Source of the DNA: Anas platyrhynchos
Lineage: Eukaryota > Chordata > Aves > Anseriformes > Anatidae
Reading direction: 5' to 3'
Length of the DNA stretch: 64,000 nucleotides
NCBI RefSeq assembly: GCF_047663525.1
Contig: NC_092617.1
Location: forward strand, 4,220,501-4,284,500
Shown here piece after piece: positions 1 to 61,290 of this stretch (within the stretch, counting starts at the first letter, position 1; each line of letters begins with the position of its first letter). Below the pieces are notes generated by a model. The model was not told the DNA's origin, did no database searches, and worked only from the letters and a program-made list of their open reading frames with translations. The translations under genes and the position numbers were made by a program.

Positions 1-154
1 ACCCATGGGGGACACCACGTGTAACAGGATGCCAGCTGGACTAACCAAAAATCTTGGTTAAAATCTCTGAGGAGAGACATTATGGGCTTCAGAAGGACAG
101 TGTGATTCTGTGTGACAATGGTAGCAGTGTCACAGATAATCATAGAAGCACGGG

Positions 155-733
155 ATCATAGAATGGTTTGGGTTGGAAGGGATCTTAAAGATCCCTTTAT
201 TCCAACCATCCTCCTACTAGACCTGGTTGCTCAAAACTCATTCCAACCTCTCTTTGAACACTTCCAGGGATGGGACATTCACAGCTTTTCCAGGAAAGCT
301 GTTCCAGTGCCTCACCATCCTAAGAGGAAAGAATTTCTTCCATATATCTAATTTAAATCTGCCCTCTTCTAGTTTAAAGTAATTTCTCCTTGTCCCATCA
401 CTACACTTCTAGACAGACTGCCTCCCCAACTTTCCCGTAGGTCCTCTCTAAGTACTGGAAGGTTGCTCTAAGGTTTCTCCGGTACTAAGTATCACAGAAT
501 CACACACAGAATCACAGAATTTCTAGGTTGGAAGAGACCTCAAGATCATCGAGTCCAACCTCTAACCTAACAATAACAGTCCCCACTAAACCATATCCCT
601 AAGCTCTACATCTAAACGTCTAAGTAGTACCAGTTCTCTCAGCACACCTTCATAGCAGAAGTGCTCCAGCCCCTTGATCGTCTTTGTGGCCCTCCTCTGG
701 ACCTCTTCAAATAATTCCATGTACTCGAACTGC
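155..733 (-). mobile_element. CR1 LINE 3' fragment, interrupted by a nested CR1
   Basis: The minus strand carries the C-terminal end of the CR1 reverse-transcriptase ORF (the VQRRATK..IKGLEH region at 660-720) followed by the 3' UTR, ending near 155-165 in the usual CR1 terminus. A 128-base younger CR1 tail is inserted at 492-619. The same element, on the opposite strand, is at 52375-52960, and an uninterrupted copy is at 28660-29130. Confidence 0.8.
492..619 (-). mobile_element. Nested 5'-truncated CR1 tail with 7-bp target-site duplication
   Basis: CTAAGTA at 485-491 is repeated at 620-626 and flanks a 128-base CR1 3' end. The paralogous site at 28773-28782 has a single uninterrupted target. 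The same nested insertion is in the inverted arm at about 52495-52622, so it predates that duplication. Confidence 0.8.
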
Positions 734-1498
734 CGTGTTAAACCACAAAAGTCTTTTTGGCACACGGTGTGGGGCACAAAGGGTTGAGATAAGGACAGAT
801 CTTACCACAGAGTGCTAAAGTTAAATTGTTATAAGCATTAGACCAGTTTAATAGTTGCTGATCACAAGGTCGACATTTTGGGTCTCAGGTCTGTTGGGCT
901 TTCATTCAGAAATGAGTTGTATAGCACATTACTTACTGCCTGTGTTCCCATTGTGCTGTTTATCATTTTTGGGTCTGGTTTAAAGATATTTTGCTATGTT
1001 GTGTAACACTACCTTATGAGTCTATAAAATTACTGGTCATGTGACAAATCTGTTCTTTGTACTGAGCATTGCCATCACATCCATTCCTCAGGAACCATTA
1101 CTCAGTAACTTAAGAATTACAGGCTTGACCTTTTTGCTTTAGGGAGCCAATCTAGGAGAGGAAAAGGGAGGGACACCTCCACTTCTTCACCTCCCCCTTC
1201 TCCTCCAGGCTAATTACACTACCTCTACAAAGCTTAGAATATCCATGGGATGGTCCTATTGTTATGTCTCCTGAATGTGTTTCAACTGTTGTTTAAGGAT
1301 AAACAACTCGTGAAGAACGCCCTCCAGAGACCTGCCCCAAGGCCGGAAAGTGAGGAGTAGCAGGGAGTATGAGAAGATCTGGGCAGGCACCTAGAGCAGT
1401 GGGCACCTCCAGTGCTTTGGAACTTCCCTTCTGAGCATGTGCAGAATCCTTAAAAACTGCAGAAGTGCTTGAAAAGGAGGGGTTATCACCTTGGCAAT
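734..1498 (+). mobile_element. ERVL-like internal leader remnant
   Basis: An LTR-end-like stretch (TTAAACCACA at about 738) is followed by a degenerate primer-binding-site region (GGCACACGGTGTGGGGC, 759-775) and non-coding leader. It aligns along its length with the clearer copy at 36779-37560 and with inverted copies at 27900-28640 and 51614-52374. There is no intact ORF. Confidence 0.65.
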
Positions 1499-1988
1499 GT
1501 TATAAGTTAGACCACACAATTTACTGGTCTATTGAAATTATTTTATTAATCAAGTAAGCAGACACAAGCAAAACAGCGCTGGGCGGCTGGGGAGTCTCCG
1601 CTCCACCATGGCACACAACTTCCCCTTTCCAGTGTTGCTGTTTTACAGCATTGAAGTTCCGGCTTGTCGAGACCTGTCGACTTGTCGAGACCTGTCGCCT
1701 TGTCGACTTGTCGAGAGTTGTTCTGAGGCTGCGCAGTCTGTTGATGGGGGTCGTTATTCTTCCTCCGGTGATCACGCATTGTGCTTGTGTTCAGGTGGGG
1801 GCAAAACAAGATGTCTTGCAGTAGATGGGTAGTATCCTACAGAATCTTTGTTTTAACAAGGATGTTTACCCAACCCCCCTTCCCCATTTGTCCCCATGTT
1901 ACAATGCTGTGAGTTGTGAAACCTTATCTCCTCAGTAGATTCTTTAAATTCTCAAGGACAATGAACAAACCCCTACTAATTTATCACA
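1499..1988 (-). mobile_element. Solo LTR-like element (about 490 bp), minus orientation
   Basis: On the minus strand it begins TGTGATAAAT and ends ATAACA (TG...CA ends), and it contains an AATAAA signal about 60 bases from its end. Its R-like segment (GGTGGAGCGGAGACTCC) is shared with the solo LTR at 11371-12096, so they belong to one family. An 18-bp minisatellite lies inside (1672-1722). Its two flanks differ: ERV leader on one side, alpha block on the other. No clean target-site duplication is visible. The inverted copy is at 51114-51613. Confidence 0.6.
1672..1722. repeat. 18-bp minisatellite (CTTGTCGAGACCTGTCGA), 2 units plus partials
   Basis: Two full units and half units of a CpG- and GTCGAC-rich 18-mer lie inside the LTR. 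The inverted arm has three full units (51379-51451), so a unit was gained or lost after duplication. Confidence 0.85.
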
Positions 1989-2214
1989 GGCACAAGGCTT
2001 GGCTGTGTCTAGCCAAGAAGCTACAAGGCCAGCAGCAGGGCCCTGGCTTGGAAGGTGCTTCTGAGGTGACTTGCGTCTGGTTGGCTGAGAGGCCGCAAGG
2101 AGCCGGCTGGGTTGGGATGCCTACTTCAGGAGTGGTTTCCACCCTGATGGAGCTTTCTTTGGTAGTAGGAAAGAGCAGGAGAAAAAAAAAAAAAAAAGAT
2201 ACAAACCACCCTAA
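1989..2214 (-). repeat. Alpha block (recurring non-OR module), ending in poly(A)
   Basis: This stretch recurs, in either orientation, at 9850-10060, 31940-32140, 44510-44720, 50900-51112 and 55740-55950. A run of 15-16 A at about 2180-2196 ends it here. It lies next to a CR1 fragment in four of the copies. I recognise no gene. Confidence 0.7.
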
Positions 2215-2510
2215 GAGGTGGGCACTGGCCATGAGGAGGAAGAAATGTCCAGGGGAACAACTGGTCTTGCCGCTAGAGACTGAGGTAAAGAAGGCATTAA
2301 GTACCTCAGCATTTACCTCATCTCTTGGCACCAGGTTTCCCCTCACATCCAATAATTTATGATGATTCTTAATCCTCTTTAAAGTATTTCTATAAGCAGT
2401 GTTTATTGTCTTTGACAGGAATGGATTGATTAAGCTCCAGCTGGGCTTTGGCCCTTCTAACTTTGTCCTGCACAGCCCCATAACATTTAGGACACAGTTG
2501 CAGAGAAACT
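2215..2510 (-). mobile_element. CR1 LINE internal fragment
   Basis: Reading the minus strand, the segment upstream of the CR1 reverse transcriptase is visible (KAQLELNQ, then LLDVRGNLVPRDEV, then NAFF). Related fragments are at 32340-32600 and 55985-56260 (-) and 50625-50850 (+). Confidence 0.7.
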
Positions 2511-2625
2511 GACAGCATGCATGAGAATGAAGCACAGAAAAAGTAGAATCTGGCAGCCTTCCACGCATTACCATTCTGTGACTGTGTTGCAGTTCCATTC
2601 AGCTGGTTACTCCTGTATTATCCAA

Positions 2626-2735
2626 ACGCTGGTTAGTGGAGGACTAGCTAGTGTTAGGTCAGAGGTTGGACTCGATGATCTTGAGGTCTCTTCCAACCTA
2701 GACAATTCTGTGTGATTCTGTGTCCCCTGTACCTG
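2626..2735 (+). mobile_element. Short CR1 3' end, absent from a paralogous copy
   Basis: A 110-base CR1 terminus is flanked by CCAA (2622-2625 and 2736-2739). The paralogue at 32728-32731 has a single CCAA and no insertion. The inverted-arm copy is at about 50348-50470. Confidence 0.7.
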
Positions 2736-2739
2736 CCAA

Positions 2740-3500
2740 TGCTGCTGTCTTGTCAGAGACAGCAAAATCACATGAAGGCTGAACTGTCTGCCTTCAGACA
2801 GGAACAGCTGACAGAACACAGCATCAGAGTGTTGGGAGCTTGAGAAACTACAGGATTTTGTCTAAAGAAACCTCTAGACATTTACAAGGAGAAGAGCACA
2901 GTCCTGAACGAGAGAGAGAGAGTAACGCCACACATCAGAGCAGACTGGGACACTGCTGAGTACACAGGAGGAGAAGGGCCTGGGCACCACGAGGGATGCC
3001 ATACAAGCAGTGGTGCCTGCTCAGCAGGAACCAGGCCAACTTCCTACAAAGCTGCCTTCTGAGGAGCATGGCCACCAAGAAGACCTGAGTTACCATACTC
3101 AGCTCTGATCCGGTATGACACCACAAGGACAAGTGTCTACAACTAACCAGTAAAGAGGCACAGGTCTGGGATTCTCTAGGCCATCCTGGTTTGGAGAGGA
3201 GCAAGGGCTATGGCAAGTCCCAGCAGGACCCAGGTCTTTCTGTCCATGGCTATGGCTGTTGTCTCTGCCACTGAGGCCTATGAGGAGACATCTGATCATT
3301 GAAGAACCAGGGCCTCATTGCCTCCTCGCCCCCACCCATGAACCAGGCAGGGGTCGTACCATTCTCCTGCACTTCGCCATGCACATCCCCATCTCCTACT
3401 GCCCCACAAAGAGCCCTGAGCAATGTGTGAAGGAAAGGATCTCCCTTCCTAGAGGCCAGGGGTCAAGGCCTGGCCCTTGTGCTTGGTGACACACATCCAG
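2740..3500. other. Intergenic part of the OR1 duplicon, no gene seen
   Basis: Unique-looking sequence shared with 32750-33620 (direct), 49500-50345 (inverted) and partly 56330-57130. Short open frames occur on both strands but shift between copies, so I do not call a gene. Confidence 0.5.
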
Positions 3501-3689
3501 TTTTCCTCCACATCAGTGTCACCTTCACACTGCCTTTGTCTCCTTGTCCTCACTGCCTCCAGGGTTCTGCTCTAACGAGCTCCAAGGGAGGCTGTGTCAG
3601 TGCTGGCCCTCAGGGGGACACTGCAGGAAACTTGCCTCTGACTTGGCCTTCTGGAGAGATGTCTTCAATTGTCTCTGAGTGCCTGAGGT

Positions 3690-3982
3690 TTGTAGGCTCA
3701 TCAGCAAAGCCCCCAGAGGGGTGATTGCAGTGCCTTGGTCTGGTGCTGTGCTGCTGAGCTGGGCCAGGCTCGTGAGACAGAGAAAACACATTTCAGAAAG
3801 TCCCATGAAGCAGAGAGAGAGCTGTGCCCAGGAGCAGCTCCTCTGCACAGAGCAGCAGGGCTAAGGGCTCTGACCACAGCTGGCATGGGGAGAGGAGAGA
3901 TGGAGAGAGGGCTTGGAGGCATAAGGGAGTGGGAGGATGCTGAGAGCTGCCTGAAGGAGAAATGTGCACAGCCCTTGACAAG
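3690..3982 (+). promoter_or_regulatory. Conserved upstream block of OR1: candidate 5' non-coding exon
   Basis: This GC-rich block occurs upstream of all six OR genes in gene orientation. Here it ends in a perfect splice-donor consensus, ACAAG|GTAAGT, with GT at 3983-3984. The matching acceptor is TCTGCAG(CAG) at 4267-4276, just before the coding exon, giving a putative intron of about 290 bases. Upstream non-coding exons are usual for vertebrate OR genes; the exon itself is inferred. Confidence 0.5.
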
Positions 3983-4299
3983 GTAAGTGTGAAAGTAAAT
4001 ATTCTGTCCATCTTCACTTCTACTGCAGCTTCAGTACTCCCAGCTCTCTCAACTTTCTTCTCAGAGAAATCCCTGACCATGTTCATCATGCTAACCATTA
4101 GAGGGATAACTACTAGATAACAAAAGAAAACTCTACCTTGCTCAAGCAAGAAAGAAACCTGGAGGAAGGTCCTCTTCAAAAAGAGAGGGTAAGGCTAGGG
4201 CATGTTTTAAGACTTGCAATGGCTTTTCCTGAGAGAAGTCTGTTATAACGTTTCTCTGCCATCTCATCTGCAGCAGACAACTGTGTCCAGAGTCAGCAA

Positions 4300-5265
4300 A
4301 TGCCCAACGTCAGCTCTGTGAGCGAGTTCCTCCTGCTGCCATTCGCAGACACGCGCGAGCTGCAGCTCCTGCACTTCGCGCTCTTCCTGGCCATCTACCT
4401 GGCTGCCCTCCTGGGCAACGGCCTCATCCTCAGCGCCGTAGCCTGCCACCACCGCCTCCACACCCCCATGTACTTCTTCCTCCTCAACCTTGCCCTCCTT
4501 GACCTGGGATGCATCTCCACCACTCTGCCCAAAGCCATGGCCAATGCCCTCTGGGACACCAGGGCTATCTCCTATCAAGGATGTGCTGCACAGGTCTTCT
4601 TTTTTGTCTTCTTGGTTGGAGTAGAGTATTCCCTTCTTACCATCATGGCCTACGACCGCTACGTTGCCATCTTCAAGCCCCTGCACTACGGGAGCCTCCT
4701 GGGCAGCAGAGCTTGTGCCCAGATGGCAGCAGCTGCCTGGGGCAGTGGCTTTCTCAATGCTGCCCTGCACACGGCCAATACATTTTCCCTGCCCCTCTGC
4801 CATGGCAATGCTGTGGACCAGTTCTTCTGTGAAATCCCCCAGATCCTCAGGCTCTCTTGCTTAGATGCCTACCTCAGGGAAGTTGGGGCACTTGTGTTTA
4901 GCTTTTCTTTGGGCTTTAGTTGCTTTGTTTTCATCATGTTATCCTATGTGCAGATCTTCAGAGCTGTGCTGAGGATGCCCTCTGAGCAGGGCCAACACAA
5001 AGCTTTTTCCACGTGCCTCCCTCACCTGGCTGTGGTCTCCCTGTTTATCAACATAGCCATGTTTGCCTACCTGAAGCCCCCCTCCATTTCTTCCCAATCT
5101 TTGGACCTGGTGGTTGCAGTTTTATATGTGGTAGTGCCTCCAGCAATGAACCCCCTCATCTACAGCATAAGAAGCAAGGAGATCAAGCATGTACTCTGGA
5201 AAGTTATGCGTAGATATTGTCCAGATGTAATACATTTACAATCTGCTTCTGCAGATAACTCATAA
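4300..5265 (+). CDS. Olfactory receptor, OR14-like (OR1)
   Basis: This encodes an odorant-sensing class A GPCR of 321 residues that would couple to Golf in olfactory cilia. Seven membrane segments fit: TM1 about 24-46 (LLGN, N40), TM2 56-78 (HTPMYFFL at 54), TM3 94-116, MAYDRY at 116, TM4 138-160, TM5 193-218, KAFSTCLPHL at 234, TM6 to about 259, and TM7 with PAMNPLIYS at 281. C95-C177 is the expected disulfide; C167 and C187 are the extra loop-2 cysteines. N3-V-S is an N-terminal glycosylation site. I chose the ATG that gives the family's MPN N-terminus; a splice acceptor ends 23-26 nt before it. Unusual points are F125 where the other five receptors have C after DRYVAI, IRSKE instead of MRNQE, and a long 31-residue tail. 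An AATAAA at 5568-5573 may end the transcript. Confidence 0.95.
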   Translation: MPNVSSVSEFLLLPFADTRELQLLHFALFLAIYLAALLGNGLILSAVACHHRLHTPMYFFLLNLALLDLGCISTTLPKAMANALWDTRAISYQGCAAQVFFFVFLVGVEYSLLTIMAYDRYVAIFKPLHYGSLLGSRACAQMAAAAWGSGFLNAALHTANTFSLPLCHGNAVDQFFCEIPQILRLSCLDAYLREVGALVFSFSLGFSCFVFIMLSYVQIFRAVLRMPSEQGQHKAFSTCLPHLAVVSLFINIAMFAYLKPPSISSQSLDLVVAVLYVVVPPAMNPLIYSIRSKEIKHVLWKVMRRYCPDVIHLQSASADNS

Positions 5266-13731: not shown

Positions 13732-14646
13732 TCAATGCATCAGTTTCCTCAAAGCATCCTTCAGCTCCTGGTTCCTCATGCTGTAGATTAAGGGGTTCAA
13801 TGCTGGAGGTGCCAATGAGTACAGAACTGCAACCACCAGGTCAATGGATGCGGAGGAGATCAAGGGGGGCTTAAGATGGGCAAATATGACAGTGCTGACA
13901 AACAGAGAGACCACAGCCAGGTGAGGGAGGCATGTGGAAAAGGCTTTATGCCATCCCTGGTCAGAGGGCATCCTGAGTACCACCCTGAAGATATGCACAT
14001 AGGACACCACAATGAAAACAAAGCATACTGTGGTTAAACAGGCACTAAAGATGAGAAGCCGACCTTCCCTGAGGTAGGCATCTGAGCAGGAGAGCTTCAG
14101 GATCTGGGGGATTTCACAGAAGTACTGGTCCACAGCATTGCCATGGCAGAGGGGAAGGGAAAATGTGTTGGCTGTGTGCAGGACAGCATACAGAAAGCCA
14201 CTGGCCCAGGCAGCTGCTGCCATCTGGGCACAAGCTCTGCTGCCCAGGAGGCTCCCGTACTGCAGGGGCTTGCAGATGGCAACGTAGCGGTCGTAGGCCA
14301 TGGTGATGAGAATTGAATACTCTGAACCAAAGAAGAAGACTAAAAAGAACACCTGTGCAACACAACCTTCATAGGAGATAACTCTTGTGTCCCGGAGGGC
14401 ATTGGCCATGGCTTTGGGTGCAGAGGTGGAGATGCAGCCCAGGTCGAGGAGGGCGAGGTTGAGGAGGAAGAAGTACATGGGGGTGTGGAGGCGGTGGTCA
14501 CAGGCTACGGCGCTGAGGATGAGGCCATTGCCCAGGAGGGCAGCCAGGTAGATGGCCAGGAAGAGCGCGAAGTGCAGGAGCTGCAGCTCGCGCGTGTCTG
14601 CGAATGCCAGCAGGAGGAACTCGCTCACAGAGCTGATGTTGGGCAT
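13732..14646 (-). CDS. Olfactory receptor, OR14-like (OR2)
   Basis: A 304-residue odorant GPCR, the shortest of the set, ending soon after TM7 (RNQELKDALRKLMH). The OR hallmarks are present: N3-I-S glycosylation site, LLGN, HTPMYFFL, MAYDRYVAIC, KAFSTCLPHL and NPLIYSMRN. It differs from its neighbours at several normally constant places: CISTSAPKAM instead of CISTTLPKAM, SYEGC instead of SYQGC, DQYFCEIP instead of DQFFCEIP, and MPSDQGWHK instead of MPSEQGRHK. Its TM5 (FSACLTTVCFVFI) resembles OR4 rather than OR1, 3, 5 or 6. The frame is open 21 codons further upstream, but the MPN start is conserved and a splice acceptor (TCCTTGGCAG) ends 23 nt before it, so the upstream codons would be intronic. 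Probably functional. Confidence 0.94.
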   Translation of the reverse strand: MPNISSVSEFLLLAFADTRELQLLHFALFLAIYLAALLGNGLILSAVACDHRLHTPMYFFLLNLALLDLGCISTSAPKAMANALRDTRVISYEGCVAQVFFLVFFFGSEYSILITMAYDRYVAICKPLQYGSLLGSRACAQMAAAAWASGFLYAVLHTANTFSLPLCHGNAVDQYFCEIPQILKLSCSDAYLREGRLLIFSACLTTVCFVFIVVSYVHIFRVVLRMPSDQGWHKAFSTCLPHLAVVSLFVSTVIFAHLKPPLISSASIDLVVAVLYSLAPPALNPLIYSMRNQELKDALRKLMH

Positions 14647-14759
14647 TTGATGGTTCTGGCCATCGGTTACTGCCAAGGATGAAAAAAGCTTTAATAAATA
14701 AGAAGACATACCTCAGATAAACTTCTAACATTTCTCACATAACTGCCCTGAAAACCCTT

Positions 14760-15410: not shown

Positions 15411-15744
15411 CTGGGAACTTGTTTCTCTACCCCCACATCTCTTCCCTGTCCAAGGCCAACAGACCCCATCCCACAAGCTGTGTGCTCAGACTCACTCAGA
15501 TTCCCTGCCACCGCAAGTATCTGAAAGCACAGAAACTAAAAAAGCCTTCCTCTTCAGATAATCCAAGCCTCAGTCTTCCTCTGGAAAAGTCCTTTTATAA
15601 ATGCCATTCCCTACAGCATCTTCTAGTCCACATTAAATGTAGAGTAAAAGCCATCCTGACAGATGCTATCAGCCATCAGATGTGCCAGCTGTAGAAGACC
15701 CCTCTGGCAACCCCACCTGCATGGCCCTGCTGCCAGAGTCTCAT

Positions 15745-16075
15745 GGTACCAAGAGCCTGCAGATGTGTCCTGCCACACGCTGCCCTCTGTTGTTGCGCTC
15801 CTCAGTGCCTCCAAGCCCTCTCTCCTTCTCTCCTCTCTGTGTGCCAGCTGCGGTCAGAGCCCCCAGCCCTGCTGCGCTGTGCAGAGGAGCTGCTCCGGGG
15901 CACAGCTCTCTCTCTGCAGCACTGTCCTCTTGCCAGGAGCTCCCCTTGTGCCAAAGAGCGTGGCCCAGCTCAGCAGCACAGCACCCGACCATGGCATCGC
16001 TTGCTCTGTGCCCTTGGGCTCCCTGGAGGTGTCCCCAAGGCCTCAGGGCTGACAGCTCCCCAAGGCAGTAGGGTC
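15745..16075 (-). promoter_or_regulatory. Conserved upstream block of OR2 (donor column mutated)
   Basis: This is the same block as at 26756-27060 and 60972-61290. At the splice-donor column the sequence is GGTACC|ATGAGA, so the GT is lost. A second candidate donor, ATGCAG|GTGGGG, lies about 30 nt further on (about 15715) and is kept in OR2, OR3, OR4 and OR6. Confidence 0.4.
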
Positions 16076-25348: not shown

Positions 25349-26308
25349 TCAGGGAATCAGATGCAGAAGACCATTTCCTTTTTGAAATACTGAATATTGC
25401 AATAACGTCCTCAGTGCCTCCTTGAGCTCCTTATTCCTCATGCTGTAGATGAGGGGGTTCACTGCTGGAGGCAGCACTGAGTACAGAACTGCCACCACGA
25501 GATCCAGCGATGGAGAGGAGATGGAAGGGGGCTTCAGGTAGGCAAACATGACAGTGCTAAGAAAGAGGGAGACCACAGCCAGGTGAGGGAGGCACGTGGA
25601 AAAGGCTTTGTGACGGCCCTGCTCAGAGGGCATCCTCAGCACTGCCCTGAAGATCTGCACATAGGACACCACAATGAAAACAAAACAACCGAAGGCTAAA
25701 GAAATACTAAACACAAGTGCCCCAACTTCCCTGAGGTAGGCATTTGAGCAGGAGAGCTTGAGGATCTGAGGGATTTCACAGAAGAACTGGTCCACAGCAT
25801 TGCCTCGACAGAGGGGAAGGGAAAATGTAGTGGTAGTCTGCAGGACAGCATTGAGAAAGCCACTGCCCCAGGCAGCTGCTGCCATCTGGGCACAAGCTCT
25901 GCTGCCCAGGAGGCTCCCGTAGTGCAGGGGCTTGCAGATGGCAACGTAGCGGTCATAGGCCATGACGGTGAGAAGGGAATACTCTGATCCAAACAAGAAA
26001 GCAAAGAGAAAGAGTTGGGCAGCACATCCTTGATAGGAGATGGCCCTGGTTTCCCAGAGGGCATTGGCCATGGCTTTGGGCAGAGTGGTGGAGATGCATC
26101 CCAGGTCGAGAAGGGCGAGGTTGAGGAGGAAGAAGTACATGGGGGTGTGGAGGTGGTGGTCACAGGCTACGGCGCTGAGGATGAGGCCGTTGCCCAGGAG
26201 GGCAGCCAGGTAGATGCCCAGGAAGAGCGTGAAGTGCAGGAGCTGCAGCTCGCGCGTGTCTGCGAATGCCAGCAGGAGGAACTCAGTGATGGTGCTGCTG
26301 TTGGGCAT
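25349..26308 (-). CDS. Olfactory receptor, OR14-like (OR3)
   Basis: A 319-residue odorant GPCR with all OR signatures: N3-S-S, LLGN, HTPMYFFL, MAYDRYVAICKPLHYGS, KAFSTCLPHL, PAVNPLIYSMRN. It starts MPNSSTITEF like OR4 (MPNRSTITEF), whereas the others read SSVSEF. TM5 to TM7 (FSISLAFGCFVFIVV, LFLSTVMFAYLKPP) are closest to OR6. TM4-loop 2 has a run of four threonines (QTTTTFSLPLC) shared in part with OR4 (HTTTTFSLPLC), so it looks mosaic. The tail is long (QYSVFQKGNGLLHLIP). The frame is open 31 codons upstream of the chosen start, but a splice acceptor (TTCCCTTAGCAG) ends 23-27 nt before the ATG, so the MPN start is preferred. No damage is seen. Confidence 0.95.
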   Translation of the reverse strand: MPNSSTITEFLLLAFADTRELQLLHFTLFLGIYLAALLGNGLILSAVACDHHLHTPMYFFLLNLALLDLGCISTTLPKAMANALWETRAISYQGCAAQLFLFAFLFGSEYSLLTVMAYDRYVAICKPLHYGSLLGSRACAQMAAAAWGSGFLNAVLQTTTTFSLPLCRGNAVDQFFCEIPQILKLSCSNAYLREVGALVFSISLAFGCFVFIVVSYVQIFRAVLRMPSEQGRHKAFSTCLPHLAVVSLFLSTVMFAYLKPPSISSPSLDLVVAVLYSVLPPAVNPLIYSMRNKELKEALRTLLQYSVFQKGNGLLHLIP

Positions 26309-26755
26309 TTGCCTGTTTTGTGTATGTTGTCCTGCTAAGGGAACAGAAATATAGTGAAAATATATCAGGATTATCTGAGAAAAAACATTTCCATTTTTCA
26401 ATTAAACCTCTCAAAGCATTTTCCGAACTGCACTTAGACAGTTGGCAGATCCCTTTCCTTCATTGGTTTCAGTTGTTCTCTCCAGTACAATCCAGACAAT
26501 TCATCGTCATGAAACCTGCCTCCCCTCCATACTAGAAGCACAGAATCCAAGAAAGTCTTCTGTTTCAGATAAACCAAGCCTCGATCTTCCTGTTAAAATG
26601 CCCCCTCAAAAATACTATTCCGTAAAACATCTTCTATGCCACATTACAGGTAGAATAAGACCCATCCTGACAGATGCTATCAGCCATTGGATGTGCCAGC
26701 TGTAGAAGACCCCTCTGGCAACCCCACCTGCATGGCCCTGCTGCCAGAGCCACAC

Positions 26756-27060
26756 AGTGTCAAGAGCCTGCAGATGTGTCCTGCCACACGCTGCCCTCTG
26801 TTGTTGCGCTCCTCAGTGCCTCCAAGCCCTCTCTCCTTCTCTCCTCTCTGCGTGCCAGCTGCGGTCAGAGCCCCCAGCCCTGCTGCGCTGTGCAGAGGAG
26901 CTGCTCCGGGGCACAGCTGTCTCTCTGCAGCGCTTGCCAGGAGCTCCCCTTGGACCCAGGAGCCCGGCCCAGCTCAGCAGCACAGCACCCGACCATGGCA
27001 TCGCTTGCTCTGTGCCCTTGGGCTCCCTGGAGGTGTCCCCAAGGCCTCAGGGTTGACAGC
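26756..27060 (-). promoter_or_regulatory. Conserved upstream block of OR3: candidate 5' exon
   Basis: Lies only about 450-750 bases before the ATG. The donor column reads GACACT|GTGTGG (GT kept, weak); the alternative ATGCAG|GTGGGG lies about 30 nt downstream. Confidence 0.4.
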
Positions 27061-29239: not shown

Positions 29240-30345
29240 TACACGTGGTGTCCCCCAGGGGTTGGTACTGGGACCTATCTTGTTTAATGTCTTTATTGAT
29301 GACCTAGATGAGGAGATTGAGTGTACCCTCACTAAATCTGCAGATGACATCAAGTTGGGAGGTAGTGACAATACACATGAGGGAAGGGTGGCCTTTCAGA
29401 GGGATCTGGATAGGCTGGATTTCTGGGTTGAGGTGAATGGGATGAGGTTCAACAAGGCCAAGTTCAGGGTCCTGCACTTTGGCCACAATAACTCCATGCA
29501 ATGCTATAGGCTTGGGGCAGAGTGGCTAGAAGACTGTGAAGAGGAAAAGGACCTGGGAGTGTTGATGGATGCTCGGCTGAACATGACCCAGCCATGTTCC
29601 CAGGTGGCCAAGAAGGCCAAGGGCATCCTGGCCTGTATTAGAAATAGTGCAGCCAGCAGGAGCAGGGAGGTGATCGTCCTCCTGTACTCGGCTCTGGTGA
29701 GGCCACACCTCGAGCACTGTGTTCAGTTTTGGGCCCCTCATTACAAGAAGGACATTTAGGCCCTGGAACATGTCCAGAGAAGGGTAACCAAACTGTTGAG
29801 GGTTCTGGAGCACAGGTCTTATGAGGAGTGGCTGAGGGAACTGAGATTATTTACTCTGGCGAAGAGGAAGCTCAGGGGAGACCTCATTGCACTCTACAAC
29901 TTCCTGAAGAGAGGTTGTGATGAGGTGGGGGTCAGCCTCTTCTCTCAGATAACTAATGATAGGACTTGAGGAAATGGCCACAAGTCGTGCCTGGTGATGT
30001 TTAGATTAGATATTACAAAAAAAATTTCTCTCAAAGAGTAGTCGGGAACTGGAATGGTCTGCTCAGGGAGGTGGTGGAGTCACTGACCCTCAGTGTTCAA
30101 GAAGCACCAGGACAAAGTGCTAGGAGATATGGCTTAGTAGCTTAGTGGGTATTATTAGTGATAGGAAGGTTGGACTAAATGGTCTTGTAGGTCCTTTCCA
30201 AATTTGTGTTTCTATGATTTCTATGATTTCTATGATTTCTATGACTCTATCATTGGACAAGGAGAATGGTTTTAAACTGGGTAGATTTAGATTCGATAGT
30301 CAGATGAAATTCTTGACTTGGAGGTGAGGCACTGGAACTGGTGTT
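29240..30345 (+). mobile_element. CR1 LINE, C-terminal RT and 3' end
   Basis: The plus strand encodes the end of the RT ([26 protein letters not shown]) with an open frame from 29262 to 29759, then stops. The F of the catalytic FADD is S here. The 3' end at about 30205-30250 shows four TTTCTATGA repeats. A second CR1 scrap follows to 30345. The direct duplicate is at 53095-54175. Confidence 0.85.
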
Positions 30346-30999: not shown

Positions 31000-32160
31000 G
31001 TGAGACAGGTACTCTGATATAATAACAGCCATCAGAAAGCTGATCTCAGTTAGATGACTGATATGGTGAGGTTAGGAGTAGCCTGGCCAGGAGAAATGTG
31101 AGATTTGGGGGACGGAAGAGGAAGGGAAGAGGAGCTCGGAAGCTTACCTTTGTAGCGGTAAGAGGGTTCATGCAATGTTGATGCTGCTGTAACACTGACT
31201 TCAGTCTTGTAAGGCCTGTAAACAATAACAATAATCCCTCAACCTAAACATTAGTCCAACATCCTGACAGGAATCCACTATTGGAAAGCAGAATTCAAAA
31301 TACCATGTGAAGAAAAACTAAGCGCAGAGCCCCCTTCCCTTGCATTTCCTCTCTTGCTCACCCTAATTCCTTGACCTTAACACTAACATTAAATGCTCTG
31401 TTTATCCCTAGACTTCTTGCCAGACCTAAACAAAACCCTAAACCATAATGCTTGCCCATACCCTAAACAAACACCTGACACAGTACAGAACAGCACACAC
31501 AAACAGAAGAGCAAACCTTCCAACTAAAACTTTATTTAATCTCTAAACCAGAAAGGTGAGCTGAGTCCATAGAGGACAAGAGAGAGCTGAGCTCTGCCTC
31601 AGGATCTCCTGCCCCAGCAGGAAGAATGTGACTGTGGCAGGGACTGTGAGGTCACTTCTGTCTCTGCACTTGATAGGGCAGCAGCAGGAACGTGTCACAG
31701 AAAGGGACTGTGAAGTCAATTCAGTCTGGAGGTGGCAGGTCACCATTGACTTCTCCCTGGGATCTGCACTTTTGGGCTGACATCTAGCAGTGGCCCTGCT
31801 AGGCCAGCAGAAGGCACCTGCTTGGCATGTTGACTGGGGGATCCCCTCTGCCTCCAGAGCCAGGAGGACCCAGACAGAAAGAAGGCCCCCAGATGGATTG
31901 TCCTGTCCCTTCTGCTTGAGTCCATGAGTGGGCAGCAGGAGGCACAAGGCTTGGCTGTGTCTCCACAAGAAGCTGCAAGGCCAGCAGCAGGCCCCTGGCT
32001 TGGAAGCTGCTGCTGAGGTGACTTGTGTCTGGTTGGCTGAGAGGACGCAAGGAGCCTGCTGGGTTGGGATGCCTACTTCAGGAGTGTTTTCCACCTTGAT
32101 GGAGCTTTCTGTGGTAGTAGGAAAGAGCAGGAGAGAAAAACTTGCCACAATGTGTGCCCA
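31000..32160 (-). repeat. Alpha-beta-delta module, copy 3
   Basis: Contains the 61-codon frame (31740-31925) and an overlapping 201-codon frame (31543-32148), both with their counterparts in copy 5. No known domain. Delta at 31040-31540. Confidence 0.65.
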
Positions 32161-33689: not shown

Positions 33690-33988
33690 GAGTGCCTGAG
33701 GTTTGTGGGCTCATCAGCCAAGCCCCCAGAGGGGTGATTGCCGTGCCTTGGGCTAGTGCTGTGCTGCTGAGCTGGGCCGGGCTCCTGGGCAGAAGGGGAG
33801 CTCCCGGCAAGAGCTGCAGAGAGACAGCTGTGCCCAGGAGCAGCTCCTCTGCACAGCGCAGCAGGGCTGGGGGCTCTGACCGCGGCTGGCACGCAGAGAG
33901 GAGAGAAGGAGAGAGGGCTTGGAGGCACTGAGGAGCGCAACAACAGAGGGCAGCGTGTGGCAGGACACATCTGCAGGCTCTTGACACC
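33690..33988 (+). promoter_or_regulatory. Conserved upstream block of OR4: candidate 5' exon
   Basis: Ends in GACACC|GTGAGG with GT at 33989-33990, at the same column as the OR1 donor; ATGCAG|GTGGGG follows at about 34016. The paired acceptor before OR4 (TCTTTGTTCAG, ending 35559) would give an intron of about 1.57 kb. Confidence 0.45.
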
Positions 33989-34029
33989 GTGAGGCTCTGG
34001 CAGCAGGGCAATGCAGGTGGGGTTGCCAA

Positions 34030-35559
34030 AGGGGTCTTCTACAGCTGGGGATGGGTCTTATTCTACCTGTAATATGGCATAGAAAATGTTTTAGAGAATG
34101 GTATTTTGAGGGGACATTTTAACAGGAAGACTGAGGATTGGTTTATCTGAAATGGAAGACTTACTTGGATTCTGTGCTTTCAGAGTCTTGGTGTGGAGGA
34201 GAGGCAGGTTTCATGACAATGAATTTTCCCGATTGTAGAGGATATGGAGACTCCAAGATTATTCCAGTGAGAGATCAATATGGCAACAATTAAACTGCAG
34301 GCACCTCAGACTAAAGACTGAAACAACAACGTTTGTTGTCTTCTCAGGACTTATCAGGTCTTTAGGAGCTGCAGCCCCCATGATGCCCTGTACTCAGGAA
34401 TTGCACAGCTTGTGGGATGGGGTCTGTAAGGAAGGACTTAGAAGATGCATGGGGACAGAGATCCTGTTTCCAGCAGGGACATAGGAAGGCAGTAGAGATA
34501 TGAAAAGGGCAGGTGGTGAGAGGGAGCATCTGCCAGAAATGCTGTGGAAGGAAGGGCTCAGGCACCTCACTGCCAGACCCTGCAGGGCAGGTGCCTTCCC
34601 TGGGACACCCCCTGCTCTCCTCTCCCACCAGCACAACCTCTGCCCTCAAGCCCCCAGTTTCCCCAGCAGGAGCTGCCTCATCTGCAAGCAGAGCTGCAGC
34701 ACAGGAGGGTCTGCTGAGTGTCCGTCTGTCTCTCCCTGGCCTTGCCTCCCCTGGCAGCAGCACGCTGGCATTCCTCCTGGCTTCTCCAGCTGGCCGTGCT
34801 GCTGCTGCTCTTGTTCCCAGGCTGGCTGGGGATGGGGGTTTCACATGCCCATGGGGTGAGCCCTCGGTGTGTTGGGTTAGAGGGGAGTAGGGGGACAGGG
34901 TGAGGGTTCTGGAGATGGGCACTTTGAGCCTGGATGTCTCTGCTCTCAGCAGCCTCTTTGTTCTTTTCACTCAAACGTGTGTAGATCTTCCCTGCAGCTC
35001 TCACAGGGCATCTGAGACCGCACTTGATGGACAGACTGGCTGTCCTCCCTGAAGAACACTGTGCGCTAAAGTGACAGTCCCTTTTTCTGTGATGATGATG
35101 ATCTGCAAGGATTCACTTTGAGTCCAGCAGAAGTAACCAGGGTTTGTGACTTGGAAACACTCCTCAGGAGTGGTGGGACAGCTGAAACAAAAAATCAAAA
35201 ACAACAATTTGAAATAATAATAATAAAAAGTCTCCACAGCTCTGCTCTGCAGTTTGTTGAACTGGGAGTAATGCTTGGGCAAAATTCTTTGAGATTAGGA
35301 GGGAAGTGAAACTGACATTCCTCCATGTTCCTCTTCAACTCTTGCTGTAGAACAGGACTGATTCCTGCATTGCCCACAGTAGAGCCTCCTGTTCCAACAG
35401 ACACCCACAGGCAGAATGAATCAGGATGCAAGAAAGGGATCTGCCAAATGTCTGCCAGAAAGTACACAATATAGGCAATGATTTTAAATGAAAAACTGAA
35501 TTTGTTTCCCTCTGATACATTTCTTGTACTTTATTACTCTCATCCTCTTCTTTGTTCAG
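34030..35559 (+). other. Putative first intron of OR4
   Basis: Matches the OR6 upstream region inverted (34680-34860 with 60320-60430, and 34840-34870 with 59700-59735), but lacks the CR1 present there. No gene is seen; GC-rich frames at 34360-34970 are open on both strands and not shared as ORFs. Confidence 0.5.
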
Positions 35560-35581
35560 GACCACATCTCCAAAAAAGAAG

Positions 35582-36514
35582 ATGCCCAACAGAAGCACCA
35601 TCACTGAGTTCCTCCTGCTGGCATTCACAGACACGTGCGAGCTGCAGCTCCTGCACTTCGCGCTCTTCCTGGGCATCTACCTGGCTGCCCTCCTGGGCAA
35701 CGGCCTCATCCTCAGCGCCGTAGCCTGCCACCACCGCCTCCACACCCCCATGTACTTCTTCCTCCTCAACCTCGCCCTCCTCGACCTGGGCTGCATCTCC
35801 ACCACTCTGCCCAAAGCCATGGCCAATGCCCTCCGGGACACCAGGGCCATCTCCTATCAAGGATGTGCTACACAGGTCTTTTTCTTTCTCTTCTTTATAG
35901 CAGCAGAATATTCTATTCTCACTATCATGGCCTACGACCGCTATGTTGCCATCTGCAAGCCCCTGCAGTACGGGAGCCTCCTGGGCAGCAGAGCTTGTGT
36001 CCAGATGGCAGCGGCTGCCTGGGGCAGTGGCTTTCTCAATGCTGTCCTGCATACGACCACTACTTTTTCCCTACCCCTCTGCCAAGGCAATGCTGTGGAC
36101 CAGTTCTTCTGTGAGATCCCCCACATCCTCAAGCTCTCCTGCTCAGATTCAGACTACCTAAAGGAAGTTAGACTTCTGGTGGTTAGTGCATGTTTTGCAT
36201 TAGTTTGTTTTGTTTTCATTTTGGTGTCCTATGTGCAGATCTTCAGGGCAGTGCTGAGGATGCCCTCTGAGCACGGCAGGCACAAAGCCTTTTCCACATG
36301 CCTCCCTCACCTGGCTGTGGTATCCCTCTTTATCAGCACTGCCATGTTTGCCTACCTTAAGCCCCCCTCCATCTCCTCCCCATCCTTGGACCTGATGGTG
36401 TCAGTTCTGTACTCAGGGGTGCCTCCAGCAGTGAACCCGCTCATCTATAGCATGAGGAACCAGGAGCTGAAAGCCACACTGAAGAAACTGATTCTAGTGG
36501 TAATATTTACTTAG
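35582..36514 (+). CDS. Olfactory receptor, OR14-like (OR4)
   Basis: A 310-residue odorant GPCR. N3-R-S glycosylation site, LLGN, HTPMYFFL, MAYDRYVAICKPLQYGS, KAFSTCLPHL and NPLIYSMRNQE are intact. It has one extra residue just before TM5 (SCSDSDYLKE, where the others have SC.DAYLRE or similar), in the loop near the odorant pocket. TM5 (VSACFALVCFVFI) groups with OR2. A cysteine replaces the usual arginine near the N-terminus (TDTCELQ instead of ADTRELQ). The frame is open ten codons upstream, but the MPN start is conserved and an excellent acceptor ends at 35559, 22 nt before the ATG. AATAAA begins two bases after the stop codon (36516-36521), unusually close to be a poly(A) signal. No defect is seen. 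Confidence 0.94.
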   Translation: MPNRSTITEFLLLAFTDTCELQLLHFALFLGIYLAALLGNGLILSAVACHHRLHTPMYFFLLNLALLDLGCISTTLPKAMANALRDTRAISYQGCATQVFFFLFFIAAEYSILTIMAYDRYVAICKPLQYGSLLGSRACVQMAAAAWGSGFLNAVLHTTTTFSLPLCQGNAVDQFFCEIPHILKLSCSDSDYLKEVRLLVVSACFALVCFVFILVSYVQIFRAVLRMPSEHGRHKAFSTCLPHLAVVSLFISTAMFAYLKPPSISSPSLDLMVSVLYSGVPPAVNPLIYSMRNQELKATLKKLILVVIFT

Positions 36515-37845: not shown

Positions 37846-37846
37846 C

Positions 37847-37969
37847 GTGGCAGTTCTGTACATGGTGGTGCCTATAGCACCGAACCCCCTCATCTACAGC
37901 ATGAGGAACCAGGAGCTCAAGAAAGCCTTGTGGAAACATGCTTCTTTGGCATCAATAATGTGCCTATAA
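37847..37969 (+). pseudogene. OR 3'-end fragment (TM7 and tail)
   Basis: Forty in-frame codons from VAVLY through the NPLIYSMRNQEL motif to a TAA. Everything 5' of TM7 is missing and replaced by ERV sequence. It lies 1.3 kb downstream of OR4 in the same orientation. P replaces V in the PAVNP motif (APNPLIY). Confidence 0.9.
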
Positions 37970-47112: not shown

Positions 47113-47367
47113 TCAGAAATTTATTACATCCAAGACACATCTCACCATCAATTTCCACAAGGCATGCTTGAGCTCCTGGCTCCTCAAGCTACAGATGAGG
47201 ACGTGCTCCGCTGGAGGCACCACTGAGTACAGAACTGCCACGACCAGGTCCAGGGGATGGGGAGGAGACTGAGGGAGATTCAGGCAGGCAACCATGACAG
47301 GCCTGAGGGAGATGGACACCATGGCCGAGGGAGGGAGGCATGTGGAAAAGGCTTTATGCCAGCCCTG
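47113..47367 (-). pseudogene. OR 3'-end fragment (TM6, TM7 and tail), OR1-type
   Basis: Open from QGWHKAFSTC to a stop at 47113-47115 without frameshift, but with damaging changes: PPSAMVS for PHLAVVS, and PPAEHVLICS for PPAVNPLIYS. The tail (RSQELKHALWKLM.RCVLDVI) and the 3' flank match OR1, not the adjacent OR5. It lies about 490 bases after the OR5 stop on the same strand. Confidence 0.9.
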
Positions 47368-47852: not shown

Positions 47853-48788
47853 TCATGGATGTTTAAGAAGAATGTATGGAAACAGTTTCCTCACTGCATC
47901 CTTGAGCTCCTGGTTCCTCATGCTGTAGATGAGGGGGTTCACTGCTGGAGGCACCACTGAGTAGAGAAGTGCGACCACCAGGTCCAGGGATGGTGAGGAA
48001 ATGAAGGGGGGCTTCAGGTAGGCAAACGCAGCAGTGCTGACCATCAGGGAGACCACAGCCAGGTGAGGGAGGCACGTGGAAAAGGCTTTGTGCCGGCCCT
48101 GAGAAGAGGGCATCCTCAGCACTGCCCTGAAGATCTGCATGTAGGAGAAAACAATGAAAACAAAACAACCAAAGCATGAAGAAAAACTAAACACAAGAGC
48201 CCCAACTTCCCTGAGGTAGCCATCTGAGCAGGAGAGCTTGAGGATCTGGGGGATTTCACAGAAGAACTGGTCCACAGCATTGCCTCGACAGAGGGGTAGG
48301 GAAAACGCATTGGCCGTCTGCAGGGCAGCATTGAGAAAGCCACTGCCCCAGGCAGCTGCTGCCATCTGGGCACAAGCTCTGCTGCCCAGGAGGCTCCCGT
48401 AGTGCAGGGGCTTGCAGATGGCAACGTAGCGGTCGTAGGCCATGACGGTGAGAAGATAAAATTCTGATGCAATCAAGAAGACAAACAAAAAGACCTGTGC
48501 AACACATCCTTGATAGGAGATGGTCCTGGTGTCCCAGAGGGCATTGGCCATGGCTTTGGGCAGAGTGGTGGAGATGCAGCCCAGGTCGAGGAGGGCGAGG
48601 TTGAGGAGGAAGAAGTACATGGGGGTGTGGAGGCGATGGTGGCAGGCTACGGCGCTGATGATGAGGCCGTTGCCCAGGAGGGCAGCCAGGTAGATGCCCA
48701 GGAAGAGCGCGAAGTGCAGGAGCTGCAGCTCACGCGTGTCTCTGAATGCCAGCAGCAGGAACTCACTCACAGAGCTGAAGTTGGGCAT
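47853..48788 (-). CDS. Olfactory receptor, OR14-like (OR5)
   Basis: A 311-residue odorant GPCR, inverted-duplicate partner of OR1. Over the first 290 aligned residues I count 40 differences from OR1, clustered at 101-111 (TM3), 201-213 (TM5) and 249-254 (TM6), where OR ligand contacts are expected. N3-F-S, MAYDRYVAIC, KAFSTCLPHL and NPLIYSMRNQE are intact. From about residue 290 the tail (KDAVRKLFPYILLKHP) resembles OR6, not OR1. The splice acceptor (CATCTTCAG(CAG)) ends 26-29 nt before the ATG, and the putative intron (49102-48818) is nearly identical to that of OR1, including about 130 bases without a difference. Confidence 0.95.
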   Translation of the reverse strand: MPNFSSVSEFLLLAFRDTRELQLLHFALFLGIYLAALLGNGLIISAVACHHRLHTPMYFFLLNLALLDLGCISTTLPKAMANALWDTRTISYQGCVAQVFLFVFLIASEFYLLTVMAYDRYVAICKPLHYGSLLGSRACAQMAAAAWGSGFLNAALQTANAFSLPLCRGNAVDQFFCEIPQILKLSCSDGYLREVGALVFSFSSCFGCFVFIVFSYMQIFRAVLRMPSSQGRHKAFSTCLPHLAVVSLMVSTAAFAYLKPPFISSPSLDLVVALLYSVVPPAVNPLIYSMRNQELKDAVRKLFPYILLKHP

Positions 48789-49102
48789 TTGCTGACTCTG
48801 GACACAGTTGTCTGCTGAAGATGAGATGGCAGAGAAAAGTTATAACAGACTTCTCTCAGGAAAAGCTATTGCAAGTCTTAAAGCATGCTCTAGCCTGAAC
48901 CTCTCTCTTTGCAGGAGAACCTTCCTGCAGCTGTCTTGCTTGAGCAAGATAGAATTTTCTTTTGTTATCTAGTAGTTATCCCTCTAATGGTTAGCATGAT
49001 GAACATGGTCAGGGATTTCTCTGAGAAGAAAGTTGAGAGAGCTGGGAGTACTGAAGCTGCAGTAGAAGTGAAGATGGACAGAATATTCTCGTTTACACTT
49101 AC

Positions 49103-49500
49103 CTTGTCAAGGGCTGTGCAGGTTTCTCCTGGAAGGCAGCTCTCAGCATCCTCCCACTGACAATTGCCCCCAAGCCCTTTCTCCTTCTCTCCTCTCCCCA
49201 TGCCAGCTTCAGTCAGAGCCCCCAGCCCTGCTGCGCTGTGCAGAGGAGCTGCTCCTGGGCACAGCGCTGTCTCTGCTTCATGGGACTTTCTGAAATGTGT
49301 TTTCTCTGTCCCACGAGCCCGGCCCAGCTCAGCAGCACAGCACCAGCCCAAGGCACTGCAATCACCTCTCTGGGGGCTTGGCTGATGAGCCCACGAACCT
49401 CAGGCACTCAGAGACAATTGAAGACATCTCTCCAGAAGTGCAAGTCAGAGGCAAGTTTCCTGCAGTTTCCCCCTGAGGGCCAGCACTGACACAGCCTCCC
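49103..49500 (-). promoter_or_regulatory. Conserved upstream block of OR5: candidate 5' exon
   Basis: Ends in the perfect donor ACAAG|GTAAGT (GT at 49102-49101 on the minus strand), as in OR1. Confidence 0.5.
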
Positions 49501-50347: not shown

Positions 50348-50470
50348 AGGTACAGGGGACACAGAATCACACACAGAACCACACAGAATGATCTTGGTTA
50401 GAAGAGACCTCAAGATCATCGAGTCCAACCTCTGACCTAACACTAACAAGTCCTCCACTAAACCAACGTC
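50348..50470 (-). mobile_element. Short CR1 3' end (partner of 2626-2735)
   Basis: CR1 terminus with CACAGAATCACACACAG in reverse. Absent from the paralogous site at 32728. Confidence 0.65.
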
Positions 50471-58184: not shown

Positions 58185-59120
58185 TTATTTCTGCTGAAGA
58201 AAGATGTATTCAAATAGTTTCCTCACTGCATGCTTGATCTCCGTGTTCCTCATGCTGTAAATGAGGGGGTTCACTGCTGGAGGCAACACTGAGTATAGAA
58301 AAGCCACCACCAGATCCAGGGATGGGGAAGAAATGGAGGGGGGCTTCAGGTAGGCAAATATGCCAGTGCTAAGAAACAGGGAGACCACAGCCAGGTGAGG
58401 GAGGCACGTGGAAAAGGCTTTGTGCCGGCCCTGCTCAGAGGGCATTCTCAGCACTGCCCTTAAAATCTGTACATAGGACACCACAATGAAAACAAAACAA
58501 CCGAAAACTAAAGAAACACTAAAGACAAGTGCCCCAACTTCCCTGAGGTAGGCACCTGAGCAGGAGAGCTTGAGGATCTGGGGAATTTCACAGAAGAACT
58601 GGTCCACAGCATTGCCTTGGCAGAGCGGCAGGGAAAATGTATTGGCCGTGTGCAGGACAGCATTGAGAAAGCCACTGCCCCAGGCAGCTGCTGCCATCTG
58701 GGCACAAGCTCTGCTGCCCAGGAGGCTCCCGTAGTGCAGGGGCTTGCAGATGGCAACGTAGCGGTCGTAGGCCATGACGGTGAGAAGGGAATACTCTGCA
58801 TCAAAAAAGAAGACTATGAAAAGGACTTGTGCAACACATCCTTGATATGAGATGGTCTTGGTGTCCCAGAGGGCATTGGCCATGGCTTTGGGGACAGTGG
58901 TGGAAATGCATCCCAGGTCGAGGAGGGCGAGGTTGAGGAGGAAGAAGTACATGGGGGTGTGCAGGCGGTGGTCGCAGGCTACGGCAGTGAGGATGAGGCT
59001 GTTGCCCAGGAGGGCAGCCAGGTAGATGCCCAGGAAGAGCGTGAAGTGCAGGAGCTGCAGCTCGCGCGTGTCTGCGAATGCCAGCAGGAGGAATTCACTC
59101 ACAGAGCTGCTGTTGGACAT
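58185..59120 (-). CDS. Olfactory receptor, OR14-like (OR6)
   Basis: A 311-residue odorant GPCR. It starts MSNSSSVSEF, so S replaces the usual P2; N3-S-S remains. LLGNSLILTAVAC departs from the LLGNGLILSAVAC of the others. MAYDRYVAIC, KAFSTCLPHL and PAVNPLIYSMRN are intact. TM3 (VLFIVFFFDAEYSLL) carries an aspartate that the other five lack, within the expected ligand-contact region. TM5-TM7 are closest to OR3. The acceptor GCCTTGGGCAG ends 22 nt before the ATG. No defect is seen. Confidence 0.95.
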   Translation of the reverse strand: MSNSSSVSEFLLLAFADTRELQLLHFTLFLGIYLAALLGNSLILTAVACDHRLHTPMYFFLLNLALLDLGCISTTVPKAMANALWDTKTISYQGCVAQVLFIVFFFDAEYSLLTVMAYDRYVAICKPLHYGSLLGSRACAQMAAAAWGSGFLNAVLHTANTFSLPLCQGNAVDQFFCEIPQILKLSCSGAYLREVGALVFSVSLVFGCFVFIVVSYVQILRAVLRMPSEQGRHKAFSTCLPHLAVVSLFLSTGIFAYLKPPSISSPSLDLVVAFLYSVLPPAVNPLIYSMRNTEIKHAVRKLFEYIFLQQK

Positions 59121-59742
59121 TTACAGGTTCTGCCACGGAGTCCTGCCCAAGGCAGAGGAAGACTATTTACCACAGAGTTATGTGAGAGGAATAATTTCCA
59201 TTTCTCTTTTAAGCCTCCCTTTGCAAATATCCGTAGACCTTTGGCGGGTCTTTTTCATGCCATATTAGTGATGCTGCCTTAAGGCCTCCATGGGAGCAGG
59301 CGATTCTGCTCTGGACAATGCAGGAGTCAGTCCTGACCTACAGCAAGAGATGAAGAACATAGGTGGATTTATATTTTCTATATTATGTTCTAGCTGCCCC
59401 ACCACACCTGAGCACTGTCTGTAAGGCATAAATCCTGGGCACTTCTGCTGCATTCCAAGTGAAATCCTGTGAATCGTCAGAAGCAAAGGTACTATTCCTT
59501 TAGTTCGGGTTGTACTTTCAGAGGGGACAGACACTCTGTCTATAGAGGCTGGTCTCTTCTGCTGGCATGTGTATGAGCTGTAGGATAATTATGCTCACAT
59601 GTTCACCTGAAAAGAAGTAGGACACTGCTGAATCCAGGCTCAGAGTGCACATCTCCAGACACCTCACCCTGTCCCTGTATTTGCCATTCCCCAAGCACAC
59701 CGAGGGTTCACTTCATGTGCATGTGAAACCCCATCCCCAGCC

Positions 59743-60318: not shown

Positions 60319-60971
60319 TGCCTGGAAACAAGAACAGCAGCAGCACGGCCAGGTGGAGAAGCCAGGAGGAACACCAGCGTGCTGCTGCCAGGGGAGGCAA
60401 GGCCAGGGAGGGACAGACGGACACTCAGCAGACCCTCCTGTGATGCAGCTCTGCCTGCAGGGGAGGTAGCTCCTGCTTATTTCAAATGCTGTGTGCTCTG
60501 CTTTGGCCCACAGACACCTCCCAAAGACAGGGCACTGGACATCACAGAGGGTTTGCAGCTCCTAAGGTCAGCTAGGATAAAACCTGAGAGGACCACAATG
60601 ATGATGTTGGTGCAATCTGTGGGATGAGGTGTGGGAAGGGATTTCACAAAGTTAATAACTGGCACTTTGATTTCTCAATGCAATGCACCAGGAGTCTCAG
60701 TCTGCTGTACAACCCCAATAATCCATTACTATAAAATCTGCCTCCCCTCCATGGCAGGAATCTCAAAACACAGACTGCAGAAAAATCCTTACCCTTCAGA
60801 TAAACCAAGCGTCAATCTTCCTCTTGAAATGCTTCCTCATAATGCCATTCTCTAAAGCATTTCAGAAACAGAGAGACCCATCCCGACAGATACTATCAGC
60901 CATCAGATGTGCCAGCTGTAGAAGACCCCTCTGGCAACCCCACCTGCATTGCCCTGCTGCCAGAGACTCAC

Positions 60972-61290
60972 GGTGTCAGGAGCCTGCAGATGTGTCCTAC
61001 CACACGCTGCCCTCCGTTGTTGCGCTCCTCAGTGCCTCCAAGCCCTCTCTCCTTCTCTCCTCTCTGTGTGCCAGCTGCTGTCAGAGTCCCCAGCCCTGCT
61101 GTGCTGTGCAGAGGAGCTGCTCCTGGGCAGAGCTGTCTCTCTGCTGCACTGCCCGCTTGCCAGGAGCTCCCCTTGGGCCCAGGAGCCCGGCCCAGCTCAG
61201 CAGCACAGCACCCGACCATGGCATCGCTTGCTCTGTGCCCTTGGGCTCTCTCGAGGTGTCCCCAAGGCCTCAGGGCTGACAGCACCTGAA
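60972..61290 (-). promoter_or_regulatory. Conserved upstream block of OR6: candidate 5' exon
   Basis: Donor column GACACC|GTGAGT, a good consensus (GT at 60971-60970 on the minus strand); ATGCAG|GTGGGG follows. Putative intron to 59143 is about 1.8 kb and contains the CR1 at 59743-60318. Confidence 0.5.

Follow-up and report, generated by a model that had tools for sequence, protein, structure and literature searches.

A GC-rich block shared by odorant-receptor genes of Anas platyrhynchos as a probable proximal promoter and non-coding first exon

Six intact odorant-receptor open reading frames (OR1 to OR6), each a single coding exon, lie within a 64-kb stretch of the Anas platyrhynchos genome (the whole stretch analysed, hereafter the window), and upstream of each lies a conserved GC-rich block of ~190 nt. 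The question raised by this locus is what the block does. We suggest that, for every receptor gene, it comprises the proximal promoter together with a first exon that is non-coding, a reading to which we assign a probability of roughly 0.8, with splicing predicted from the sequence.

All six receptors match Pfam 7tm_4 (E 1e-49 or better). OR1 and OR5 sit in the two copies of an inverted segmental duplication (1-5202 versus 47886-53113, 94% identity over 5.2 kb with blastn), one 1706-nt arm of which is 99% identical. Three short C-terminal receptor fragments (37823-37936, 47146-47367 and 57831-57929) lie downstream of OR4, OR5 and OR6, and LINE reverse-transcriptase open reading frames (RVT_1) that belong to an ~11-kb repeating unit occur at 29262-29759 (slightly below the Pfam cut-off), 40245-41267 and 41283-42380. 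A further repeated stretch (31543-32148, reverse strand), with similar copies near 1988, 9850, 21141, 50904 and 55223, contains open reading frames of up to 236 aa; the sole member of that repeat tested, the frame at 31546-32148, had no Pfam match.

The block is present as six full-length copies of 184-191 nt, one upstream of each receptor and on the same strand (Table 1), and no seventh full-length copy was found in the window. The first-pass annotation had described a GC-rich block upstream of every receptor, and this description holds for all six (59-68% G+C versus 49% for the window). The copies are CpG-poor (observed/expected 0.06-0.35), and a 23-nt run inside the block, hereafter the core, is identical in all six. 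When subtype A (OR1 and OR5) was aligned with OR2, OR3 and OR6 using blastn, the block was the sole match within several kilobases upstream; similarity resumed ~2-16 nt before the ATG and continued into the coding region.

Table 1. Coding sequences, blocks and predicted splice sites of the six receptor genes, in window coordinates; the slash in a donor string marks the predicted exon end
Feature	Detail	Position	Strand	Basis
OR1 coding sequence		4300..5265	+	ORF list, Pfam
OR2 coding sequence	from conserved ATG (14646)	13732..14646	-	ORF list, Pfam
OR3 coding sequence	from conserved ATG (26308)	25349..26308	-	ORF list, Pfam
OR4 coding sequence	from conserved ATG (35582)	35582..36514	+	ORF list, Pfam
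OR5 coding sequence	ATG 48788	47853..48788	-	ORF list, Pfam
OR6 coding sequence	ATG 59120	58185..59120	-	ORF list, Pfam
OR1 block	subtype A; 23-nt core 3743-3765	3731..3921	+	
OR2 block	subtype B	15806..15996	-	
OR3 block	subtype B	26817..27000	-	
OR4 block	recombinant: A to left, B to right	33744..33927	+	
OR5 block	subtype A	49165..49355	-	
OR6 block	subtype B	61033..61223	-	
OR1 donor	AAG/GTAAGT, predicted exon end 3982, score 12.4	3980..3988	+	
OR2 first donor column	ACC/ATGAGA, dead (AT for GT)	15739..15747	-	
OR2 second donor	CAG/GTGGGG, predicted exon end 15717	15711..15719	-	
OR3 first donor column	ACT/GTGTGG, weak	26750..26758	-	
OR3 second donor	CAG/GTGGGG, predicted exon end 26728	26722..26730	-	
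OR4 first donor column	ACC/GTGAGG, predicted exon end 33988	33986..33994	+	
OR4 second donor	CAG/GTGGGG, predicted exon end 34016	34014..34022	+	
OR5 donor	AAG/GTAAGT, predicted exon end 49103	49097..49105	-	
OR6 first donor column	ACC/GTGAGT, predicted exon end 60972	60966..60974	-	
OR6 second donor	CAG/GTGGGG, predicted exon end 60944	60938..60946	-	
OR1 acceptor	predicted 3' exon start 4274	4254..4274	+	
OR2 acceptor	predicted 3' exon start 14669	14669..14689	-	
OR3 acceptor	predicted 3' exon start 26331	26331..26351	-	
OR4 acceptor	predicted 3' exon start 35560	35540..35560	+	
OR5 acceptor	predicted 3' exon start 48814	48814..48834	-	
OR6 acceptor	predicted 3' exon start 59142	59142..59162	-	

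Beyond the window, the core was found with at most two mismatches at 401 places in the same genome (1.26 Gb), and its reversed control at none. The copies that we sampled were the first 40 of 100 listed exact matches (401 places in total), on contigs C17, C30 and C31; all 40 are followed, on their own strand, by a receptor gene or remnant, including one frameshifted receptor (L009) and one short remnant (L010). A dispersed repeat unrelated to receptors is disfavoured by this count, which covers exact-core copies only. In the covered part of C31, 30 of the 46 scored receptor hits are preceded at <4 kb by an exact core on their own strand, and the control arrangement (core on the wrong strand or downstream) was seen in one of the 46; among the 16 C31 receptors without an exact core, at least four have an imperfect copy. 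The distance from core to ATG is 0.46-2.25 kb. A first look at the genome gave 1960 receptor-like candidates, many of them very similar, of which 127 were scored.

Other identities for the block were also considered. A coding upstream exon is disfavoured, and was dropped, because the block contains a 7-nt indel. The window had no Rfam match at gathering score to a known structured RNA, and collections of viral and prokaryote contigs yielded no relative.

Comparison of the three subtype-B genes of the window, OR2, OR3 and OR6, revealed a conserved island of ~430 nt, with 21/426, 32/433 and 30/426 differences in the three pairs (4.9-7.4%) against 58/243, 56/235 and 48/229 in the flanks (21-24%; Fisher p 1.4e-12, 7e-9 and 4.4e-7, sites taken as independent). 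Between OR1 and OR5, the comparison runs in the opposite direction (29/342 differences in the island versus 72/1273 beside it, p 0.06). The window taken alone thus indicates constraint on the block for subtype B and none for subtype A. Four-fold sites were dropped as a neutral yardstick because the coding exon is itself a mosaic.

Splice sites were scored with a human-type matrix that is not trained on birds. The first-pass annotation had reported a splice donor conserved in all six genes; the donor strings that it quoted occur as written in OR1, OR3, OR4, OR5 and OR6, and the junction coordinates that it gave (3982/4274, 49103/48814 and 60972/59142) are correct for those sites, but the same column in OR2 has AT rather than GT. 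The donor of OR1 and OR5 is strong, and only three sites score as high (12.4) on both strands of the 64 kb; however, the equal donors of these two genes are not independent evidence because the genes are recent near-copies (94% over 5 kb). In OR3, OR4 and OR6, the first donor column is weak to middling. A second, better-scoring donor had been missed in OR2, OR3, OR4 and OR6: CAG/GTGGGG (score 8.7) is invariant, sits 28 nt downstream of the first column, and is the top donor within 420 nt of the block start in these four genes. On the reverse strand of the block, acceptors of at least 7 occur in all six copies and donors of at least 5 in OR2 and OR6 only, and the six copies share no donor pattern.

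We then compared 53 genes, namely the 40 sampled copies, L002-L008 (the best matches to the OR1 region) and the six window genes; counts over this set refer to relatives rather than independent genes, in a sample chosen for an exact core. The first column has GT in 50 of the 53, the exceptions being OR2 and L045 (AT) and L032 (GC). By position, +1 is G in 51, +2 is T in 52, +4 is A in 52 and +5 is G in all 53, and the positions that vary by subtype are +3 (A in 24, G in 28) and -1 (G in 24, C in 24). Identity across subtypes at +1 to +5 is accordingly patterned (0.93, 0.95, 0.15, 0.97 and 1.00), and in 30-nt steps it rises from 0.41-0.59 to a peak of 0.72 on the donor and then drops to 0.44 and 0.30. 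The column reads AAG/GTAAG[TG] in A and A' (one AAA/GTAAGT, in L035), mostly CCG/GTAAGT in C, mostly ACC/GTGAGG in B, and ACC/GTGAGT in B' (one ACG/GTGAGT, in L016). Because the kept and free positions match those of a donor across the 53 genes, the first column carries, as judged from this alignment, the footprint of a splice donor and is best read as an old common one. Both OR2 and L032 have intact open reading frames though their first donor is lost, and no donor of score at least 6 was found near the first column of L032.

At the other end of the predicted intron, all six window genes have an acceptor whose exon side lies 22-26 nt before the ATG (scores 8.3-13.4 with the same matrix), where chance would give 0.0094 per 5-nt slot; the earlier claim of a strong acceptor at 22-29 nt is thus borne out, as is that of an intron varying from about 0.3 to 1.8 kb (predicted 0.29-1.8 kb). 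The final 120 nt of the subtype-B introns in the window are just 46-59% identical, yet the acceptor is kept. Across the 53 genes, 41 have an acceptor of score at least 8 within 40 nt of the ATG (from unrounded scores; 42 if rounded), versus 9.6% of background windows from the same introns (261/2717). Eight of the 12 genes below this threshold belong to B', which has nine members in the sample; L016 is the exception, and the other eight have either a weak acceptor ending in TGAG (L011, L014, L015, L020, L021 and L022, all on C30, with the open reading frame intact in five of the six) or no AG at the usual place (L018 and L024). A stronger competing acceptor lies at -235/-232 in OR1 and OR5, and OR1, OR4, OR5 and OR6 contain extra intronic donors or acceptors of equal or higher score; additional exons or alternative joins may therefore occur in these four genes. 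The introns of OR4 (34665-34822) and OR6 (60320-60477) share a 158-nt ungapped stretch with 93% identity and sharp edges, which has no counterpart in the remaining four introns at E 0.01.

A spliced 5' non-coding exon is the best reading of these data because donor-type constraint is seen across divergent subtypes, the block accompanies receptors genome-wide, and the acceptor persists despite divergence of the sequence preceding it. The first-pass proposal of a functional 5' non-coding exon is thus right in kind, with splicing as a prediction; its premise of a donor kept in all six genes fails for OR2, and it understated how widely the pattern extends. Transcription would start in or just before the block, and the first exon would end at the first donor column, ~210-245 nt after the start of the core, or, in subtype B, either there or at the second donor 28 nt further down. 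Splicing would then remove an intron of 0.3-2 kb and join the first exon to the single coding exon at an acceptor that usually lies 20-26 nt ahead of the ATG.

For subtype B, we regard it as an even question whether the first column is dead weight and CAG/GTGGGG the real donor, the exon end having moved between paralogs. CAG/GTGGGG is present in 19/19 subtype-B genes and 0/34 others, and because the corresponding position has no GT in A' and C and is mostly CAG/ATGGGG in B', it is, on this comparison, a B-specific second donor in genes with a weak first one. The first column scores <5 in 14 of the 19 B genes and 5-8.5 in four, and is dead in one; in OR2, OR3 and OR6, moreover, no part of the conserved island varies more than the 9-mer of this column (4/9 versus 37/424, Fisher p 0.006). 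Against a moved exon end, 18 of the 19 B genes retain GT at the first column, with A at +4 in 18 and G at +5 in all 19, the scores come from a matrix without training on birds, and B' genes, with CAG/ATGGGG at the second position, must use the first column or another site.

It is unlikely that the block is only a promoter or enhancer, with transcription starting at its 3' end or within the supposed intron, an unspliced 5' UTR, and a GT column present by chance or as a remnant. Such a role would fit the conservation of subtype B, which extends ~60 nt beyond the first donor, and the intact receptors of OR2 and L032 with that donor dead. It would also fit CCCNNGGG, a putative O/E-like (EBF) site situated 22 nt upstream of the block in OR2, OR3 and OR6. 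However, without splicing there is no reason for donor-shaped kept and free positions or for an acceptor placed correctly in 41 of the 53 genes. As regards the elements of mammalian-type odorant-receptor promoters, the O/E-like sequence reads CCCAAGGG in those three genes and has a looser form in OR1 and OR4, with none in OR5, and CCCNNGGG has a background of 31 occurrences per 64 kb; none of the six window genes has a TAAT (homeodomain-type) site or a TATA box in the 530 nt around the block start (250 nt ahead of it and 280 nt beyond).

Very improbable is a block alike merely through recent duplication and sequence exchange, without function: the window-scale duplications (OR1/OR5), the clean recombinant of OR4 within the block, the conflict with a single tree in 109 of the 1225 informative site pairs from the six blocks, and the OR1/OR5 block without constraint would all suit it, whereas in comparisons of A, B and C the flanks are at background, some parts of the block 93-94% identical and a 30-nt stretch between them 65% (a transferred tract would be alike throughout), and donor and acceptor positions are kept while their surroundings have diverged.

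Paralogs seem to have exchanged sequence around the putative promoter and first exon. Upstream of the block, OR4 is A-like for >1 kb, and downstream of it B-like: the first 55 diagnostic sites are A-type and the next 105 are B-type with two A-type exceptions, placing the switch within 33754-33793, inside the invariant 23-nt run. An A-like front is joined to a B exon in OR4, L029, L034 and L044 and to a C exon in L032 and L047, and the nearest fronts to all of these are those of A/A' genes. When the five exon subtypes were placed on a coding tree of 48 genes, 17 changes were needed (minimum 4, shuffled mean 27.3), and none of 200 shuffles reached 17 or fewer; by this measure, front subtype and coding sequence are linked, but loosely. 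The tree is merely a rough yardstick because the coding exon is mosaic, with a nearest neighbour that switches along its length. OR1 and OR5 are 94% alike upstream, yet the second halves of their coding sequences differ at 67 of 450 sites.

We tentatively propose, with slightly less than even confidence, that promoter/first exon and coding exon may be separate modules shuffled among hundreds of paralogs, with exchange at short identical runs in the first exon and in the homogenised coding exon, such that a receptor could be re-paired with another control region. The loose link between front subtype and coding sequence deserves follow-up, and natural recombinants such as OR4 separate front subtype from coding sequence when asking what sets the place of receptor expression.

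The predicted architecture is known from mammals, where odorant-receptor genes have a single coding exon, one or more upstream non-coding exons and a variable intron between them (PMC3247239, PMC4982115). PMC3247239 also describes 5' UTRs that usually contain introns, promoters and first exons that are hard to predict without RNA, and, in mouse, a distance from transcription start to ATG with a mean of 4.2 kb and a range of 0.2-24 kb, within which the core-to-ATG distances reported here fall. Mouse promoter regions average 36.4% G+C in that source, unlike the GC-rich block. Mammalian odorant receptors are also known to include cases with an upstream ATG in frame or with a split coding region (PMC7055050), and OR2 has a comparable upstream ATG in its predicted first exon: the change that kills its first donor creates ACCATGA, which places an ATG in a good context. 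Were the second donor used, the predicted junction would leave this ATG in frame with the receptor and lengthen the protein by 17 residues.

We found no paper on the promoters or first exons of bird odorant-receptor genes. For the avian group gamma-c receptors, within-species homogenisation and possible concerted evolution have been proposed (PMC2758906); that work concerns coding sequences, and the words "upstream" and "promoter" are absent from it. The present receptors resemble that group in that many very similar copies occur in one genome and paralogs exchange sequence, and the window receptors are presumably gamma-c. The architecture itself is thus known, and what is new is its occurrence in this block family: unlike the mammalian system, one family of blocks is common to several hundred genes here, and a block that tags several hundred receptors offers a sequence-based route to the start sites and promoters of the whole repertoire.
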